This document shows, piece by piece, positions 1,620-54,737 of a stretch of DNA of 64,000 bases; positions within the stretch are counted from its first letter, which is position 1, and each line of letters starts with the position of its first letter. Made by a program: the position numbers and the translations under genes. The stretch lies in assembly GCF_019139535.1 (NCBI RefSeq), contig NZ_CP077073.1, positions 633,501 to 697,500 on the forward strand, given 5' to 3'. This DNA comes from Pseudomonas muyukensis (GTDB lineage: Bacteria > Pseudomonadota > Gammaproteobacteria > Pseudomonadales > Pseudomonadaceae). A model generated the notes under the pieces. It had not been told where the DNA came from and searched no databases. It was given only the letters and a program-made list of their open reading frames with translations.

Positions 1620-3642
<2,023 letters not shown>

Positions 3643-32279: not shown

Positions 32280-33803
32280 TCAGGTCGTCAGCGTACGCAG
32301 CAGGTTCTTGTAGTCCTCGCGGATGTCCGCGTCGGATTCCTTCAATTCATTGATCTTGCGGCAGGCGTGCAGCACGGTGGTGTGGTCGCGGCCGCCAAAC
32401 ATGTCGCCGATTTCCGGCAAGCTGTGGTTGGTCAGCTCCTTGGACAACGCCATGGCCACCTGGCGCGGGCGCGCCACCGAGCGCGAACGGCGCTTGGACA
32501 GCAGATCGGCGATCTTGATCTTGTAGTACTCGGCCACAGTGCGCTGGATGTTATCCACACTGACCAGTTTGTCTTGCAGCGCCAGCAAGTCCTTGAGCGA
32601 CTCGCGGATCAGCTCGATGGTGATGTCGCGGCCCATGAAGTGCGAATGGGCGATCACCCGCTTCAGGGCGCCTTCCAGTTCACGCACGTTGGAGCGGATG
32701 CGCTGGGCAATGAAGAACGCGGCATCGTGCGGCAGCTCGACCTTGGCCTGGTCGGCCTTCTTCATCAAGATCGCCACGCGGGTTTCCAGCTCGGGCGGCT
32801 CGACTGCCACGGTCAGGCCCCAACCGAAGCGCGACTTCAGGCGTTCCTCCAGGCCTTCGATTTCCTTCGGATAGCGGTCACTGGTGAGAATCACCTGTTG
32901 GCCGCCTTCGAGCAGGGCGTTGAAGGTGTGGAAAAATTCCTCCTGGGAACGCTCCTTGCGGGCGAAGAACTGGATATCGTCGATCAGCAGCGCATCGACC
33001 GAACGGTAGAAGCGCTTGAACTCGTTGATGGCGTTTAGCTGCAAGGCTTTGACCATGTCAGCGACGAAGCGCTCCGAGTGCAGGTACACCACCTTGGCGT
33101 TGGGGTTCTTCTTCAGCAGGTGGTTACCCACAGCGTGCATCAAGTGGGTCTTACCCAGACCGACCCCGCCATAAAGGAACAGCGGGTTGTAGCCATGCTT
33201 GGGGTTGTCGGCCACCTGCCAGGCGGCGGCGCGGGCCAGCTGGTTGGACTTACCCTCGACGAAGGTTTCGAAGGTGAAGGTGCGGTTCAGGTAGCTGGTG
33301 TGCTTGAGCGCGCCCTCGACCTGCACCGTGCGCTGCTCGCTGCGCCCGCCGGTGGTCGGCGTTGGCGCAGGTTCGGCCATGCTGTCGAAACTGTCGCGAG
33401 AGGTCGGTTCTTCGACGGCCTCGGCTACCAGCGCCGGCTCGGCCACCGGCGCGCTGACCGGCTCGACCGGGCGCGCGACCTGGGCGCTCTGCTGCGCCTG
33501 TTGCGCGGCAACCGCGGCGCTGACCGGGGCATTGGGTGCGGCACGTGCCGCCGAGCTGCGGCGGCTGCCTATTAATAAGGAAAGGGCGGGGGCAATACCG
33601 CTGCCTTGTTCGCCGAGCAGCTCAAGCAAACGGCCAAGGTACTTTTCATTGACCCAATCGAGAACGAAGCGGTTGGGCGCATAGACGCGCAACTCGTCGC
33701 CTTCGGCTTCGACCTGTAGCGGACGGATCCAGGTGTTGAATTGCTGGGCAGGCAGTTCATCGCGCAGAAGCTCCACGCACTGCTGCCAAAGTTCCACTGA
33801 CAC
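32280..33803 (-). CDS. dnaA: Chromosomal replication initiator DnaA
   Basis: DnaA binds the 9-mer boxes in oriC and melts the origin. The start is the GTG at 33803 ([19 protein letters not shown]), with AGGGGA six nt before it, giving 507 residues; the longer ORF reads into oriC. Domain I is N-terminal. Domain II is a long Ala/Pro/Val-rich linker (about 90-175). Domain III has the Walker [14 protein letters not shown] and the [12 protein letters not shown] sensor region. Domain IV has the box-binding signature [15 protein letters not shown]. Its promoter overlaps a DnaA box, so autoregulation is likely. Confidence 0.99.
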
Positions 33804-34290
33804 GGATATCCCCTGAGTTGAAAGCCGGATGAGGCAAAAACAAACCGCCATTGTACCGGGCACAGGGTTACTTATCCACACGTGGCGACGGCCACAGGCA
33901 GGGTAAAGACGCCAAAATCAGACGGGAATACCGTTTCAGCGTGTGAATAAGCTCTGTGGATAAACGCACCTGAGGGCTATGCACAACCCTGAGTTCAACC
34001 CTGTGGATAAATCACCTGTGGATAAACAGCCTTTTGCTGCACAGGTTGTACCCATGCCCAGCACAGTCAAAGCACCCGTTACCGACAAGGTTGTGAAACG
34101 CTGTACATAGCATGGATATTGGGCTTAGAACGGTTATCCACAGAAGGTTATCCACCTAAACTCTTTAAGATCTTCAGAAAAGCTTTTTATATGCCTCTTT
34201 GTTTTTTTCAGTAACCGGTGTGTTCCGGTGATCCAGTGCCCACTGCACGGTATTGGCCCATTCGACCTTCCATAAGGAAAGGCTGGTTGG
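33804..34290. other. oriC: Replication origin oriC1 (dnaA-rpmH intergenic region)
   Basis: Perfect DnaA boxes are at 33872-33880 (+), 33955-33963 (-), 34002-34010 (-), 34017-34025 (-) and 34134-34142 (+), with a one-mismatch box TTATCCACC at 34148-34156. An AT-rich tract (about 34157-34215, with AAAGCTTTTTAT and CTCTTTGTTTTTTT) directly follows the box cluster and is the likely unwinding element. The layout and location between dnaA and rpmH are those of characterised Pseudomonas origins. Confidence 0.93.
33850..33878 (-). promoter_or_regulatory. Candidate dnaA promoter overlapping a DnaA box
   Basis: On the minus strand, TGGATA (33878-33873) and TACAAT (33855-33850) are separated by 17 bp, about 47 bp before the dnaA start. 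The -35 hexamer lies within the perfect DnaA box at 33872-33880, so DnaA bound there would compete with RNA polymerase. Confidence 0.6.
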
Positions 34291-34293
34291 AAA

Positions 34294-34322
34294 TTGACCT
34301 ATTGCCTTGCTTTCTCTAGAAT
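34294..34322 (+). promoter_or_regulatory. Sigma-70 promoter of rpmH-rnpA
   Basis: TTGACC (34294-34299), a 17-bp spacer and TAGAAT (34317-34322) match the consensus well. Transcription would start about 55 nt before rpmH. Confidence 0.75.
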
Positions 34323-34383
34323 CGCCGATCTCTTAAAAAGGGGGCCCTTCCGGCCCGTTGTCGACCAACCCAGGTAACACGCC

Positions 34384-34518
34384 ATGAAACGTACTTTCCA
34401 ACCAAGCACCATCAAGCGCGCCCGCACCCACGGTTTCCGTGCCCGTATGGCTACCAAGAACGGCCGCGCCGTACTGTCGCGTCGTCGTGCCAAAGGCCGT
34501 AAGCGTCTGGCCATTTGA
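34384..34518 (+). CDS. rpmH: Ribosomal protein L34
   Basis: This 44-residue, very basic protein of the large ribosomal subunit reads [19 protein letters not shown] at its start and ends KGRKRLAI, the standard bacterial L34. The ORF is too short for most gene callers. It is the first gene of the conserved rpmH-rnpA-yidD-yidC cluster to the right of oriC1. Confidence 0.98.
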
Positions 34519-34531
34519 TTTTCCGGCACAG

Positions 34532-34936
34532 GTGGTGAGTCAGGACTTCAGTCGGGAAAAGCGACTGCTTACACCCCGGCATTTCAAAGCGGTCTTCGAC
34601 TCCCCAACCGGCAAGGTTCCAGGGAAAAACCTGCTTATCCTTGCCCGCGAGAACGGCCTCGATCACCCACGCCTCGGCCTGGTAATCGGCAAGAAGAGCG
34701 TCAAGCTCGCCGTTCAACGCAATCGCCTGAAACGCCTGATGCGCGATTCGTTCCGCCTGAACCAGCAGTTGTTGGCTGGTCTGGATATCGTGATCGTCGC
34801 GCGCAAGGGGTTGGGCGAAGTGGAAAACCCAGAATTGCACCAACACTTTGGCAAGCTCTGGAAGCGACTGGTTCGCAGTCGGCCCTCTCCAGCGGTCAAT
34901 GCCGATACCGCAGGGGTAGACAGTCACGATGCGTAA
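34532..34936 (+). CDS. rnpA: Ribonuclease P protein component
   Basis: RnpA is the basic protein cofactor of RNase P, which matures tRNA 5' ends. The GTG at 34532 ([18 protein letters not shown]) gives 134 residues; the second GTG directly after is an alternative start. The RNR signature appears as [15 protein letters not shown]. The ORF continues upstream through rpmH in another frame and is not used. It lies 13 bp after rpmH and overlaps yidD by 8 bp. Confidence 0.96.
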
Positions 34937-35174
34937 ACTGGCACTCGTTCCGATCCAGTTTTATCGTTACGCCATCAGTCCACTGATGGCCAGTCACTGT
35001 CGTTTCTATCCCAGCTGTTCCTGTTACGCCTATGAAGCCATCGAAAATCATGGCCTCTTGCGTGGTGGGTGGCTGGCCGTTCGTCGCCTGGGGCGTTGTC
35101 ATCCGTGGAACGACGGCGGTTTCGATCCCGTTCCACCAGCTCCTTCCTCCCGAACTTCTTCGATAGCCGAGTAA
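34929..35174 (+). CDS. yidD: Membrane protein insertion efficiency factor YidD
   Basis: An 81-residue membrane-associated protein that assists YidC-dependent insertion. It carries the characteristic Cys-containing block [15 protein letters not shown], then [15 protein letters not shown] and GGFDPVPP. The start overlaps the end of rnpA, and yidC starts 2 bp after its stop, so the three genes are tightly coupled. Confidence 0.96.
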
Positions 35175-35176
35175 TC

Positions 35177-36862
35177 ATGGATATTAAACGCACGATCCTG
35201 ATCGTCGCCCTGGCAATCGTGTCCTATGTCATGGTCCTCAAGTGGAACCAGGACTATGGCCAGGCTGCCCTGCCGACTCAGCATGCTGCCGCCAGCAATG
35301 CCACTGCGTCCCTGCCGGACAGCGTGCCCGCCAGCAACAACGGCGCCAACGCCGATTTGCCGAGCGTCGATGCCCAAGCCGGCAACACTGGCGTGGCGCC
35401 AGCGCCCGTTGCGGTCAGCAAGGACCTGATCCAGGTCAAGACCGATGTCCTGAACCTGGCTATCGACCCGGTTGGCGGCGATATCGTCCAGCTGACCCTG
35501 CCTAAGTACCCACGCCGTCAGGACCATCCTGAAATTCCGTTCCAGTTGTTCGACAACGGCGGCGAGCGTGTCTACCTGGCCCAGAGCGGCCTGATCGGCA
35601 GCAATGGCCCGGACCGCGCCAGCGGCCGTCCGTTGTATGCCACCGAACAGAAGAGCTACCAGCTGGCCGACGGCCAAAACCAACTGGTGGTCGACCTGAA
35701 GTTCAGCGAAAACGGCATCAACTACATCAAGCGCTTCAGCCTCAAGCGCGGCGAGTACGACCTGACCGTCAGCTACCTGATCGACAACCAGAGCGCCCAG
35801 GCCTGGAGCGGCAACATGTTTGCCCAGCTCAAGCGTGACGCCAGCTCCGATCCGTCGTCGAGCACCGCCACCGGCACTGCCACTTACCTGGGCGCGGCCC
35901 TGTGGACAGCTTCCGAGCCGTACAAGAAAGTGTCGATGAAGGACATGGACAAGGGCGGTTTGCAAGAAAATGTGTCCGGCGGCTGGGTCGCCTGGCTGCA
36001 GCACTACTTCGTCACCGCCTGGATCCCGAGCAAGTCGGACAACAACGCCGTCCAGACCCGCAAGGACAGCCAGGGCAACTACATCATCGGCTACACCGGC
36101 CCGGCCCTGAACGTGCCAGCCGGCGGCAAGGTCGAAACCAGCGCCATGCTGTATGCCGGCCCGAAGATTCAGTCCAAGCTCAAGGAGTTGTCCCCAGGCC
36201 TGGAGCTGACCGTCGACTACGGCTTCCTGTGGTTCATCGCCCAGCCGATCTTCTGGCTGCTGCAACATATCCACAGCCTGCTGGGTAACTGGGGCTGGTC
36301 GATCATTGTCCTGACCATGCTGATCAAGGGCCTGTTCTTCCCGCTCTCTGCCGCCAGCTACCGCTCGATGGCGCGCATGCGTGCCGTGGCGCCGAAACTG
36401 GCCCAGCTCAAGGAACGCTTCGGTGACGATCGCCAGAAGATGTCCCAGGCGATGATGGAGCTGTACAAGAAAGAGAAGATCAACCCGCTGGGCGGCTGCC
36501 TGCCGATCCTGGTACAGATGCCGGTGTTCCTGGCCCTGTACTGGGTACTGCTGGAAAGCGTAGAGATGCGCCAGGCCCCATGGATGCTGTGGATCACCGA
36601 CCTGTCGATCAAGGATCCGTTCTTCATCCTGCCGATCATCATGGGCGCCACCATGTTCATCCAGCAGCGCCTGAACCCGACGCCGCCGGATCCGATGCAG
36701 GCGAAGGTCATGAAAATGATGCCGATCATCTTCACCTTCTTCTTCCTGTGGTTCCCGGCTGGCCTGGTGCTGTACTGGGTTGTGAACAACTGCCTGTCGA
36801 TCGCGCAGCAGTGGTACATCACCCGTAGCATCGAAGCGGCGACCAAGAAAGCTGCCGCTTGA
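35177..36862 (+). CDS. yidC: Membrane protein insertase YidC
   Basis: YidC inserts inner-membrane proteins such as the F0 subunits encoded further right. The start is the ATG at 35177 (MDIKRTILIVALAIVSYVMV), giving 561 residues. It has an N-terminal membrane anchor, a large periplasmic domain (about 30-340) and the conserved C-terminal five-helix core from about residue 360 (WGWSIIVLTMLIKGLFFPLS, and GGCLPILVQMPVFLALYW with its hydrophilic-groove Arg upstream). It is followed by a strong bidirectional terminator. Confidence 0.98.
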   Translation: MDIKRTILIVALAIVSYVMVLKWNQDYGQAALPTQHAAASNATASLPDSVPASNNGANADLPSVDAQAGNTGVAPAPVAVSKDLIQVKTDVLNLAIDPVGGDIVQLTLPKYPRRQDHPEIPFQLFDNGGERVYLAQSGLIGSNGPDRASGRPLYATEQKSYQLADGQNQLVVDLKFSENGINYIKRFSLKRGEYDLTVSYLIDNQSAQAWSGNMFAQLKRDASSDPSSSTATGTATYLGAALWTASEPYKKVSMKDMDKGGLQENVSGGWVAWLQHYFVTAWIPSKSDNNAVQTRKDSQGNYIIGYTGPALNVPAGGKVETSAMLYAGPKIQSKLKELSPGLELTVDYGFLWFIAQPIFWLLQHIHSLLGNWGWSIIVLTMLIKGLFFPLSAASYRSMARMRAVAPKLAQLKERFGDDRQKMSQAMMELYKKEKINPLGGCLPILVQMPVFLALYWVLLESVEMRQAPWMLWITDLSIKDPFFILPIIMGATMFIQQRLNPTPPDPMQAKVMKMMPIIFTFFFLWFPAGLVLYWVVNNCLSIAQQWYITRSIEAATKKAAA

Positions 36863-36887
36863 CGGGCGACCCGGTTTGCCTGTGAAT

Positions 36888-36914
36888 AAAAACGCCCCCT
36901 AGTGGGGCGTTTTT
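36888..36914. terminator. Rho-independent terminator after yidC
   Basis: AAAAACGCCCC-CTAGT-GGGGCGTTTTT is a strong symmetrical hairpin 25 bp after yidC and 35 bp before mnmE. mnmE therefore depends on read-through or on a promoter near the hairpin. Confidence 0.85.
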
Positions 36915-36949
36915 GCTATCTGACGAATTCGTTGTAGAGGCTTTCGAGC

Positions 36950-38320
36950 ATGAACACTGTGCGTGAAACCATTGCCGCCATCGCCACCGCCCAAGGCCGT
37001 GGCGGGGTCGGTATCGTTCGCTTGTCCGGGCCATTGGCGACCCAGGCCGGGCTGGCCATCACCGGCCGCACCTTGACCCCGCGGCATGCCCACTACGGGC
37101 CGTTGCGCGACGCCGATGGCCTGGTCCTGGACGAAGGCATCGCGCTGTTCTTCCCCGGACCCAACTCCTTTACCGGCGAAGACGTGCTGGAACTGCAGGG
37201 CCACGGCGGCCCGGTGGTGATGGACATGCTGCTGCAGCGTTGCCTGCAGCTGGGTTGCCGCTTGGCGCGCCCTGGCGAGTTCAGCGAGCGGGCGTTTCTC
37301 AACGACAAGCTCGACCTGGCCCAGGCCGAAGCCATCGCCGACCTGATCGAAGCCAGCTCCACCCAGGCCGCGCGCAATGCCCTGCGCTCGTTGCAAGGCG
37401 CGTTCTCCAAGCGTGTGCACAGCCTGACCGAGGCGCTGATTGCCCTGCGCATCTACGTCGAGGCGGCCATCGACTTCCCCGAGGAGGAAATCGACTTCCT
37501 CGCCGACGGCCATGTGCTGCGCATGCTCGATGAGGTGCGCGACGAACTGTCCAGCGTGCAGCGCGAGGCCGGGCAAGGCGCCTTGCTGCGTGACGGCATG
37601 ACCGTGGTCATCGCCGGGCGGCCGAATGCCGGCAAGTCGAGCTTGCTCAACCAGTTGGCTGGGCGTGAGGCGGCAATCGTCACCGACATCGCCGGCACTA
37701 CCCGGGACATCCTCCGCGAACATATCCACATCGACGGCATGCCGCTGCACGTGGTCGACACCGCAGGGCTGCGCGATACCGACGACCATGTGGAAAAGAT
37801 CGGTGTCGAACGCGCCCTCAAAGCCATCGGCGAGGCCGATCGGGTGCTGTTGGTGGTGGATTCCACCGCGCCAGAAGCCAGCGATCCGTTCGCCCTGTGG
37901 CCGGAATTTCTCGACCAGCGCCCGGACCTGGCCAAGGTCACGCTGATTCGTAACAAGGCTGACCTCAGCGGCGAGCGGGTGGGGATGGAGCAGAGCGACG
38001 ACGGTCACGTGACCATTACCCTGAGTGCCCGCGACAGCGACATGGGCCTGGAACTGCTGCGCGATCACCTCAAGGCCTGCATGGGCTATGAACAGACCGC
38101 CGAAAGCAGTTTCAGCGCCCGCCGCCGGCACCTGGAAGCACTGCGCCAGGCCTGTGAGCACCTCGAGCATGGTCGCGCGCAGTTGACCCTGGCGGGCGCC
38201 GGCGAGCTATTGGCAGAGGATCTGCGCCAGGCACAGCAGGCGCTGGGGGAGATCACCGGGGCGTTCAGCTCGGATGACCTGCTGGGGCGGATCTTCTCGA
38301 GTTTTTGTATCGGCAAGTAA
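36950..38320 (+). CDS. mnmE: tRNA modification GTPase MnmE (TrmE)
   Basis: MnmE works with MnmG to add the carboxymethylaminomethyl group to U34 of certain tRNAs. The 456 residues comprise an N-terminal folate-binding domain ([21 protein letters not shown]), a helical domain, and an inserted G domain with P-loop GRPNAGKSS (about 223-231), the DIAGTTRD switch and NKADL. The protein ends with the conserved FCIGK containing the functional Cys. mnmG lies downstream but is separated from it by oriC2. Confidence 0.98.
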
Positions 38321-38345
38321 TCCACAATTTGCGAGAGAACCAAGG

Positions 38346-38372
38346 CCGCTCCTTCAGGAGCGGTTTTTTTTT
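38346..38372 (+). terminator. Rho-independent terminator after mnmE
   Basis: CCGCTCC-TTCA-GGAGCGG followed by nine T. The preceding AAGG and the GGAGCGG word resemble a REP half, so the terminator may be REP-derived. Confidence 0.85.
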
Positions 38373-38772
38373 GCCTGTGATTCGCTCATGCAGGGGACTG
38401 CTTGCCTTGTGAACTCCATCAACAGAGGCAATTTGATGCGTATAAGCTCTGTGGAAAACTCGCCTTCAGCTCCGTTGATAACCAGGCTTTTTTTCTGAGG
38501 ACAACCCCGCCTGTTGATAACCATTACTTTCATCCACAGCTTACACGCGGTTATCCAGACCCCTCAGGCCTAGTGGGACACAGGGTTATGAAACCTTGCA
38601 GGCACCACCATTATTGGGCTTCAAGCAGTTATCCACATGGGGATAGGTGCCTAAGAATAAACATAAAAACAAAGCTTTTTTAAATTTTTCCTCTTTGTTT
38701 TCTTTTACCTGCCATTCATCCACAGCCTGGTCAAATTTTGTTCAGAAGGTTTATCGAAGGGGACTAAGCCCC
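38373..38772. other. Second DnaA-box cluster and AT-rich tract (oriC2)
   Basis: The region holds a perfect DnaA box (38629-38637) and several one-mismatch boxes: TGTGGAAAA 38450, TGTTGATAA 38512, TCATCCACA 38530 and 38716, and TTATCCAGA 38551. An AT-rich tract follows (about 38652-38708, AAAGCTTTTTTAAATTTTTC). Sequence blocks match oriC1 in the same order and spacing. A second autonomously replicating segment upstream of mnmG (gidA) is known from pseudomonads. No protein gene is seen in the 501-bp gap. Confidence 0.78.

Positions 38773-38821: not shown

Positions 38822-40713
<1,892 letters not shown>

Positions 40714-40717
<4 letters not shown>

Positions 40718-52901: not shown

Positions 52902-54737
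<1,836 letters not shown>

Follow-up and report, generated by a model that had tools for sequence, protein, structure and literature searches.

How a bacterial replication origin can leave the neighbourhood of dnaA for that of mnmG, where Escherichia coli has it, is an old question; a passage of PMC5295017 describes the E. coli origin as translocated away from dnaA. The question is raised again by the 64,000-nucleotide stretch of the Pseudomonas muyukensis chromosome analysed here (bases 633501-697500 of a genome held in a single contig of 5.53 Mb, and called the window below), in which two origin-like elements lie 4.5 kb apart: oriC1 in the first intergenic region, between dnaA and rpmH, and oriC2 in the second, between mnmE and mnmG. 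We conclude, with a probability of roughly 80%, that these are old duplicate copies of one oriC, of which oriC1 would serve as the main origin and oriC2 as a low-efficiency, dispensable second one. A family with both homes occupied, set beside relatives with a single home, provides natural before, during and after states of an origin move.

The existence of two origins in P. aeruginosa is known already. An opinion article (PMC4403523, for Jiang 2006) mentions two autonomously replicating elements, only one of them essential in the laboratory, and part of PMC3056050 places the P. putida oriC between rpmH and dnaA. Motif work on gammaproteobacterial oriC also exists, as a portion of PMC7174414 makes clear. 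Our search of the open literature, which did not extend to the primary papers of 1990 and 2006, found no account of spaced-matched paralogy or address switching, and an earlier mention is possible. We take the second P. aeruginosa element to be the one at the mnmG site; the 1990 paper, by Yee and Smith, reportedly has a title that sets the origins of Pseudomonas apart from those of E. coli type as a distinct class.

Two copies of one module in the window

The sequence-only reading, an earlier note made from the letters of the window, had described oriC1 and oriC2 as spaced-matched copies of one module. We have recovered all five of its shared block pairs, the first at 33947 and 38442 and the others at offsets of 171/171, 186/186, 232/229 and 247/248, together with a pair of boxes at offset 70. 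Aligned without gaps from these two starting points, the copies are identical at 107 of 199 positions (54%). The randomised alignment that the same reading had proposed as a check leaves little room for chance: the global score is 32, against a mean of -57.9 (standard deviation 7.8) for dinucleotide shuffles, none of 2000 reaching it. With DnaA boxes of up to two mismatches masked, the global score is still reached by 0 of 1000 shuffles and stands about 4 standard deviations above their mean.

The difference in box content was also as described, with a single perfect DnaA box, TTATCCACA, in oriC2 (at 38629; 38435-38710 scanned) and four in oriC1 (33940-34220). A module model built from 88 Pseudomonadaceae segments, both window copies included, finds two full-length matches in the 64 kb, at 33949-34208 (135 bits) and 38444-38701 (138 bits). 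The next-best match, of 14.5 bits, overlaps oriC1.

Conservation of both copies in the Pseudomonadaceae

The spacing in relatives, a second check suggested beforehand, is the same, and both copies are present, in nearly all the family members tested. Of 30 family loci, one of them the window, 29 gave a within-genome match between oriC1 and oriC2, with z from 7.8 to 22.4 (15 shuffles each). A locus was testable if both intergenic regions reached at least 200 bp, and 11 of the 40 family loci fetched had no such pair; one of them presents a mnmE-mnmG gap of 69 bp, below test length (L047, genome G027). The sole exception in the family has a second region of 240 bp (L058, genome G033). The test, which compares 200 bp without gaps and is negative where only one site holds the module or where indels intervene, gave no match in any of the 16 loci that could be tested from the order's other families, where 40 had been fetched and z was at most 2.9. 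Named loci behaved alike, 45/45 matching in the family and 0/3 in other families. By the model, both copies are found in 46/46 named family loci spanning both sites, with the reservations that many of these sequences also served to build the model and that the second copy of L148 is cut by the locus end.

Gapless profiles of 78 oriC1 and 85 oriC2 carry the same letter in 61 of the 63 columns conserved in both copies, and their similarity is 170 at zero shift, 43 at the next-best shift and -41 on average with columns permuted. These profiles held misplaced rows (L047 in oriC1; L050, L051, L062, L065, L066, L142 and L146 in oriC2), most of which were placed by later profiles with a shorter left end. 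Modules scoring below 20 against their own profile (oriC1 of L047; oriC2 of L050 and L051) were left out of the module tree and of the box statistics, which cover 77 oriC1 and 83 oriC2; one profile comparison also left out oriC1 of L062.

Positions relative to the R1 box are fixed: the boxes at -179, -156, -132 and -117 point one way and those at -99 and 0 the other, and a motif at about -49 to -42 and an A+T-rich side after +22 are fixed as well. Not all of the box positions are filled in both copies. Where a box with at most one mismatch was found within 15 bp, box a was exactly at its expected place in 70/77 oriC1 and 78/78 oriC2, and box d in 70/73 and 80/81. The proposal that helical phase is under selection therefore holds for the exact spacing, which is conserved, and goes no further; with an exact distance conserved, phase as such cannot be separated from it.

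The claim of an old duplication is supported by the nearly family-wide occurrence of both copies with their spacing, and by the grouping of the copies mostly by site across 54 genomes; neither of the two outcomes that the sequence-only reading had named as refuting it was obtained. Specifically, the tree built from the 108 modules of these genomes, all non-redundant, requires 6 changes of the oriC1/oriC2 label against about 36 with labels shuffled. Only genomes in which both regions were long enough entered the module comparisons (29; 54 non-redundant). Identity to the partner in the same genome is 0.482 against 0.462 for a random partner, with 0 of 20000 permutations as close, and 0.488 to the partner of the nearest relative, the own partner being closer in 21/54. 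Since the own partner is no closer than that of the nearest relative, nothing beyond lineage effects points to gene conversion still at work, and we have rejected ongoing conversion as an explanation.

Identity of the module

The model finds the E. coli oriC at 3236-3491 of its locus (L191; annotated 3245-3476) with E = 5.9e-11, and by its sequence the module is therefore a whole E. coli-type oriC. The R4-R1 inverted pair is 179 bp apart in both window copies and 180 bp in E. coli, and CTA follows R1 by 13 bp (+22) in all three, a triplet found at +22 in only 30/77 oriC1 and 17/83 oriC2 of the family. Like oriC2, the E. coli oriC lies upstream of mnmG in the same orientation; unlike the pair studied here, it is known as a single origin, and its middle boxes look different. 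A DnaA-dependent element, oriK-3850, borders dnaA in E. coli according to part of PMC12000880, and suggested that the gap between dnaA and rpmH there might hold a remnant of the module. We have discarded this idea, the model search finding nothing above 5.7 bits in that gap.

The side downstream of R1 (+22 to +74) has a mean A+T content of 0.74 in the 77 oriC1 and 0.79 in the 83 oriC2. The P. aeruginosa oriC is open in vivo 18-46 nt downstream of R1, as a section of PMC5109545 reports, and the opened stretch corresponds to what we call here the unwinding element. A primer used in the published oriC assay of that species has no match in any of the 341 loci searched, so that the published origin is not tied to our set letter by letter.

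A probable main origin and a second copy with weakened boxes

The copies differ consistently across the family in their DnaA boxes. Perfect boxes average 2.13 per module in the 77 oriC1 and 1.01 in the 83 oriC2; box a is perfect in only 5/83 oriC2 and reads TTTTCCACA in 35/83, and R1 reads CTATCCACA in 33/83. The suspected divergence in DnaA affinity is thus real and family-wide as far as the box sequences go, the affinity itself being only predicted from them.

Among family genomes 145/148 were matched by the model, 7 with one match; in many of the others some matches are the two strands of one place, and copies were not counted individually. Of 17 genomes checked, oriC2 is absent and the rpmH-site module kept in G027, in G033 and in four genomes of genus g13, and genomes with oriC1 and no oriC2 span at least three genera; it is probably missing in G037 too (an 87% complete draft). 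These natural losses differ in what remains: two of the g13 genomes (L050, L051) have no box left in the 800 bp before mnmG, and the mnmE-mnmG gap of G033 (L058) holds an apparent relic of oriC2, with an R1-like box and unwinding side and no left arm. No loss of oriC1 was confirmed in the same 17 genomes; in G002 and G097 the contig breaks off on the dnaA side, and the draft of G118 is incomplete. In two genomes, G018 (L212) and G037 (L203), the module stands upstream of rpmH with dnaA about 23 kb off or on another contig, so that the module follows rpmH and not dnaA.

In the mechanism that we propose, the ancestral gammaproteobacterial oriC module would have had an R4-side arm of inverted DnaA boxes and an R1-side arm opposite, continuing from the R1 box through a 13-bp spacer and a trio-like start to an A+T-rich unwinding element facing the downstream gene. 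Its duplication, at or before the base of the Pseudomonadaceae, would have filled both addresses used in the order, the dnaA-rpmH gap and the mnmG upstream region. DnaA, loaded on the two arms, would start at R1 and open the unwinding element. The copy richer in perfect boxes, oriC1, would fire first; oriC2, with its weakened boxes and intact unwinding element, would need more DnaA-ATP. The family makes it possible to test whether a chromosome tolerates two copies of the same origin because the second has lowered affinity.

The main rival on function is a regulatory oriC2 that does not initiate, and would instead titrate DnaA, control DnaA-ATP in the manner of datA and DARS, or form half of a bipartite orisome looping to oriC1. 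We regard it as unlikely, with points of substance on its side: the weaker boxes, the repeated absences, the very dense perfect boxes around the origin and the statement (in the opinion article PMC4403523) that one P. aeruginosa origin alone is essential. datA and DARS, as outlined in part of PMC5835720, are DnaA-box clusters outside the main origin, as is oriC2; unlike them, oriC2 appears from its sequence to conserve an A+T-rich unwinding element along with the complete geometry of two arms. Pure titration needs no unwinding element, and that of oriC2 is the better conserved of the two (38.8 bits against 29.3 bits over +10 to +74). The bipartite origins of Bacillus subtilis and Helicobacter pylori likewise have two DnaA-box clusters near dnaA, but a passage of PMC4285127 gives them an unwinding element in one part only, whereas here both copies carry one by sequence and the pair is not bipartite in that sense. 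A further difference is the 4.5 kb with rpmH, rnpA, yidD, yidC and mnmE between the copies. Finally, the mnmG-site module is the only one found in 51/95 classified relatives, which speaks against this rival.

Addresses of the module in the order and class

This simple sequence model recognises oriC across much of the order, with a match in 121 of 145 genomes (116/140 outside the family). We have classified 95 of the 140 non-family genomes by address, using listed matches up to E 9.2e-7; another 24 gave none, and 21 gave weaker ones and were left out. The module is upstream of mnmG only in 51, in the dnaA-rpmH gap only in 36, at both in 7 and elsewhere in 1. Each address has one orientation, with mnmG in 58/58 cases and divergent from dnaA in 43/43. 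Named representatives of the dnaA-rpmH address are Halomonas, Modicisalibacter, Vreelandella, Oceanospirillum and Marinobacter, and of the mnmG address Marinobacterium, Marinomonas, Vibrio and Photobacterium (a match at either site in 16 of the 30 named loci outside the family; most of the others do not reach mnmG). The dual state occurs in all four classified genomes of family f8 and in one of four in each of f28, f36 and f37.

The arm spacing of outgroup modules is within 1 bp of that of the window in 33 of the 34 scoring above 10 (93 sequences scanned). The only larger departure among the 34 is a high-scoring mnmG-site module whose left arm has shifted by 11 bp, roughly a turn of the helix. 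Outgroup modules showed no preference for oriC1 or oriC2 according to address (p = 0.65; 15 dnaA-site and 55 mnmG-site rows, several genomes entered twice), and we have dropped this candidate relationship.

On an MnmG tree of 101 rows (80 of 94 assigned genomes, 11 having been dropped by hand and 3 having a broken mnmG, plus 20 of the family and E. coli) the three address states need at least 18 changes, against 46 when shuffled, and starred branches force 4 (mnmG), 5 (dnaA) and 4 (both) changes; G002 is labelled dual there though its dnaA side is cut by a contig end. We tentatively read the origin in this order, at somewhat less than even odds, as a discrete module that moved repeatedly among fixed addresses (these two and, in other orders, the dnaN side of dnaA), nearly always in one orientation and through dual intermediates, the Pseudomonadaceae having kept the dual state with a low-affinity, opening-competent oriC2 selected for conditions in which oriC1 fails or is repressed.

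Alternatively, both sites could have been filled in the ancestor of the order and one of them later lost in each single-site family, so that the Pseudomonadaceae would have no duplication of their own. The dual genomes of f8, f28, f36 and f37 and the interleaving of mnmG-only and dnaA-only clades over those 18 or more changes would agree with such an ancestor, as would the weak matches upstream of mnmG in G275 and G248, if they are relics. We nevertheless find it rather improbable, given that the two modules of dual genomes in other families resemble each other only weakly (z 0.2-4.4 in six of seven; the value of G282, whose mnmG-side locus had no match, is empty, and the dnaA-side match of G174, at a contig start, was unplaced) and that some letters are common to the two family copies only. 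The seventh dual genome, G218 (L307, L257), reaches z 9.9, perhaps from an independent, younger duplication. As to possible relics, the mnmG loci of 34 dnaA-only genomes gave three weak matches (12.3-14.6 bits), two in the usual orientation. These two are left-arm-like box clusters upstream of mnmG in G275 (L276:1170-1333, 14.6 bits) and G248 (L279:2056-2219, 12.3 bits), both of family f38 and with their full module at dnaA, and are possibly remains of an earlier dual state.

In the class as a whole, the model matched 57 of 114 genomes, that of the window included. The 56 listed matches, one per genome, fall on the dnaN side of dnaA in 35 (34 codirectional), upstream of dnaA in 8 (7 divergent) and upstream of mnmG in 3, with 10 unassigned; mnmG positions were supplied for 7 genomes only. 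The dnaN side of dnaA is thus a third address of the module, in other orders.

Descent or convergence

Outside the boxes, letters conserved in the two copies of the family fall into two sets. Those at -184, -183, -146, -47 and -32 occur in 0.07-0.21 of 14 outgroup modules (A at -184 and G at -183 in 0.14 each); others, at -137, -136, -118, -100, -43, -42, -29 and +9, occur in 0.64-0.93 of the same modules. Letters shared by the family copies and rare in outgroups favour duplication over convergence, and the pattern fits an older module that was probably duplicated in the stem of the Pseudomonadaceae.

Several observations weigh against a duplication. The masked local score is weak, being reached by 3/1000 shuffles (2/1000 when only boxes of at most one mismatch are masked). 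Starred branches force at least 3 of the 6 label changes in the module tree, and the copies do not form two clean clades. Columns unconserved in both copies have a random-partner identity of 0.29-0.31, near background; neutral traces are gone, and the case for descent therefore rests on constrained columns and the phyletic pattern. The letters of box a itself reach only 0.43-0.71 in the 14 outgroup modules, and since -184 and -183 flank this partly kept box, their rarity may partly reflect poor alignment at that end. For the wider history, the MnmG tree is a quick tree of a single gene, and the lack of site-specific sequence in outgroups fits relocation and could also be saturation.

Convergence, that is, unrelated DnaA-box clusters moulded alike by the same DnaA oligomer demanding the same spacing, would explain why the shared columns are mostly DnaA boxes and the A+T-rich side, why unconserved columns are almost without excess identity and why outgroup modules of distant families have the same geometry, but it is improbable in view of the global score that survives box masking, the several non-box letters that the family copies have in common and outgroups seldom have (-184 and -183 being subject to the alignment caveat) and the constancy of orientation and of the two addresses in the classified genomes of the order.

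Features of the window

The coordinates of both modules, their parts and the flanking genes are collected in Table 1. The minus-strand genes upstream of oriC1 are, from what is familiar of the Pseudomonas cluster, presumably gyrB, recF, dnaN and dnaA; on the plus strand we assume the order rpmH, rnpA, yidD, yidC and mnmE after oriC1, and mnmG, rsmG, parA and parB after oriC2. The names of DnaA, RpmH, YidC, MnmE and MnmG are backed by consistent protein matches. For MnmE, the closest named match listed is that of Pseudomonas mosselii, at 97% (the window's own genome was possibly left out).

Table 1. Parts of the two origin modules and neighbouring genes, in positions of the window
Feature	Sequence	Position	Strand	Remarks
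oriC1 module		33948..34208	+	dnaA-rpmH gap, unwinding side towards rpmH; model match and family profile
oriC1 box a (R4-like)	TTATCCACA	33955..33963	-	179 bp from R1; perfect in 54/77 family oriC1
oriC1 box c	TTATCCACA	34002..34010	-	at most one mismatch in 42/77 oriC1 and 0/83 oriC2
oriC1 box d	TTATCCACA	34017..34025	-	DnaA-box scan, family positions
oriC1 R1 box	TTATCCACA	34134..34142	+	adjoins unwinding element; DnaA-box scan
oriC1 putative DNA-unwinding element		34156..34208	+	CTA in trio register +22 from R1, register common to E. coli oriC
Extra perfect DnaA box		33872..33880	+	262 bp upstream of oriC1 R1, beyond the aligned module
oriC2 module		38443..38703	+	mnmE-mnmG gap, unwinding side towards mnmG; model match
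oriC2 box a	TTTTCCACA	38450..38458	-	179 bp from R1
oriC2 weak box b	TTATCAACG	38473..38481	-	at -156; at most two mismatches in 51/83 oriC2; profile column pattern
oriC2 box d	TTATCAACA	38512..38520	-	sequence and family positions
oriC2 box e	TCATCCACA	38530..38538	+	at most one mismatch in 57/83 oriC2 against 17/77 oriC1
oriC2 R1 box	TTATCCACA	38629..38637	+	DnaA-box scan
oriC2 putative DNA-unwinding element		38651..38703	+	better conserved than that of oriC1
dnaA		32280..33803	-	open reading frame, start GTG at 33803; protein matches; diverges from oriC1
rpmH		34384..34518	+	translation and matches; downstream of oriC1
mnmE		36950..38320	+	open reading frame and matches; upstream of oriC2
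mnmG (gidA)		38822..40717	+	open reading frame and matches; downstream of oriC2

DnaA boxes and GC skew around the origin

In a 464-kb stretch the GC skew changes sign across the window, with its minimum at window position 54427; the trough is too shallow for the skew to tell oriC1 from oriC2, and we have abandoned it for this purpose. Perfect DnaA boxes TTATCCACA are crowded in the window, which holds 26 of them against 0.085 on average, and 3 at most, for 200 letter-shuffled words. They extend from 1608 to 58359, many inside genes. On the larger scale, 39 of the 47 perfect boxes of the 464 kb fall within 120 kb (613501-733500), the genome total being 108. Another family genome, G121, shows similar crowding between about 604 and 690 kb, for the most part to one side of its origin. 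Such crowding could be an origin-linked territory of DnaA titration. Far from the origin, six perfect boxes lie within 2 kb at 287437-289439 of the contig, a possible DnaA-control locus.

One of the loci compared (L113), titled Paucimonas sp., has a Pseudomonas-type origin region and an MnmE 89% identical, and is probably a misnamed Pseudomonas metagenome-assembled genome.

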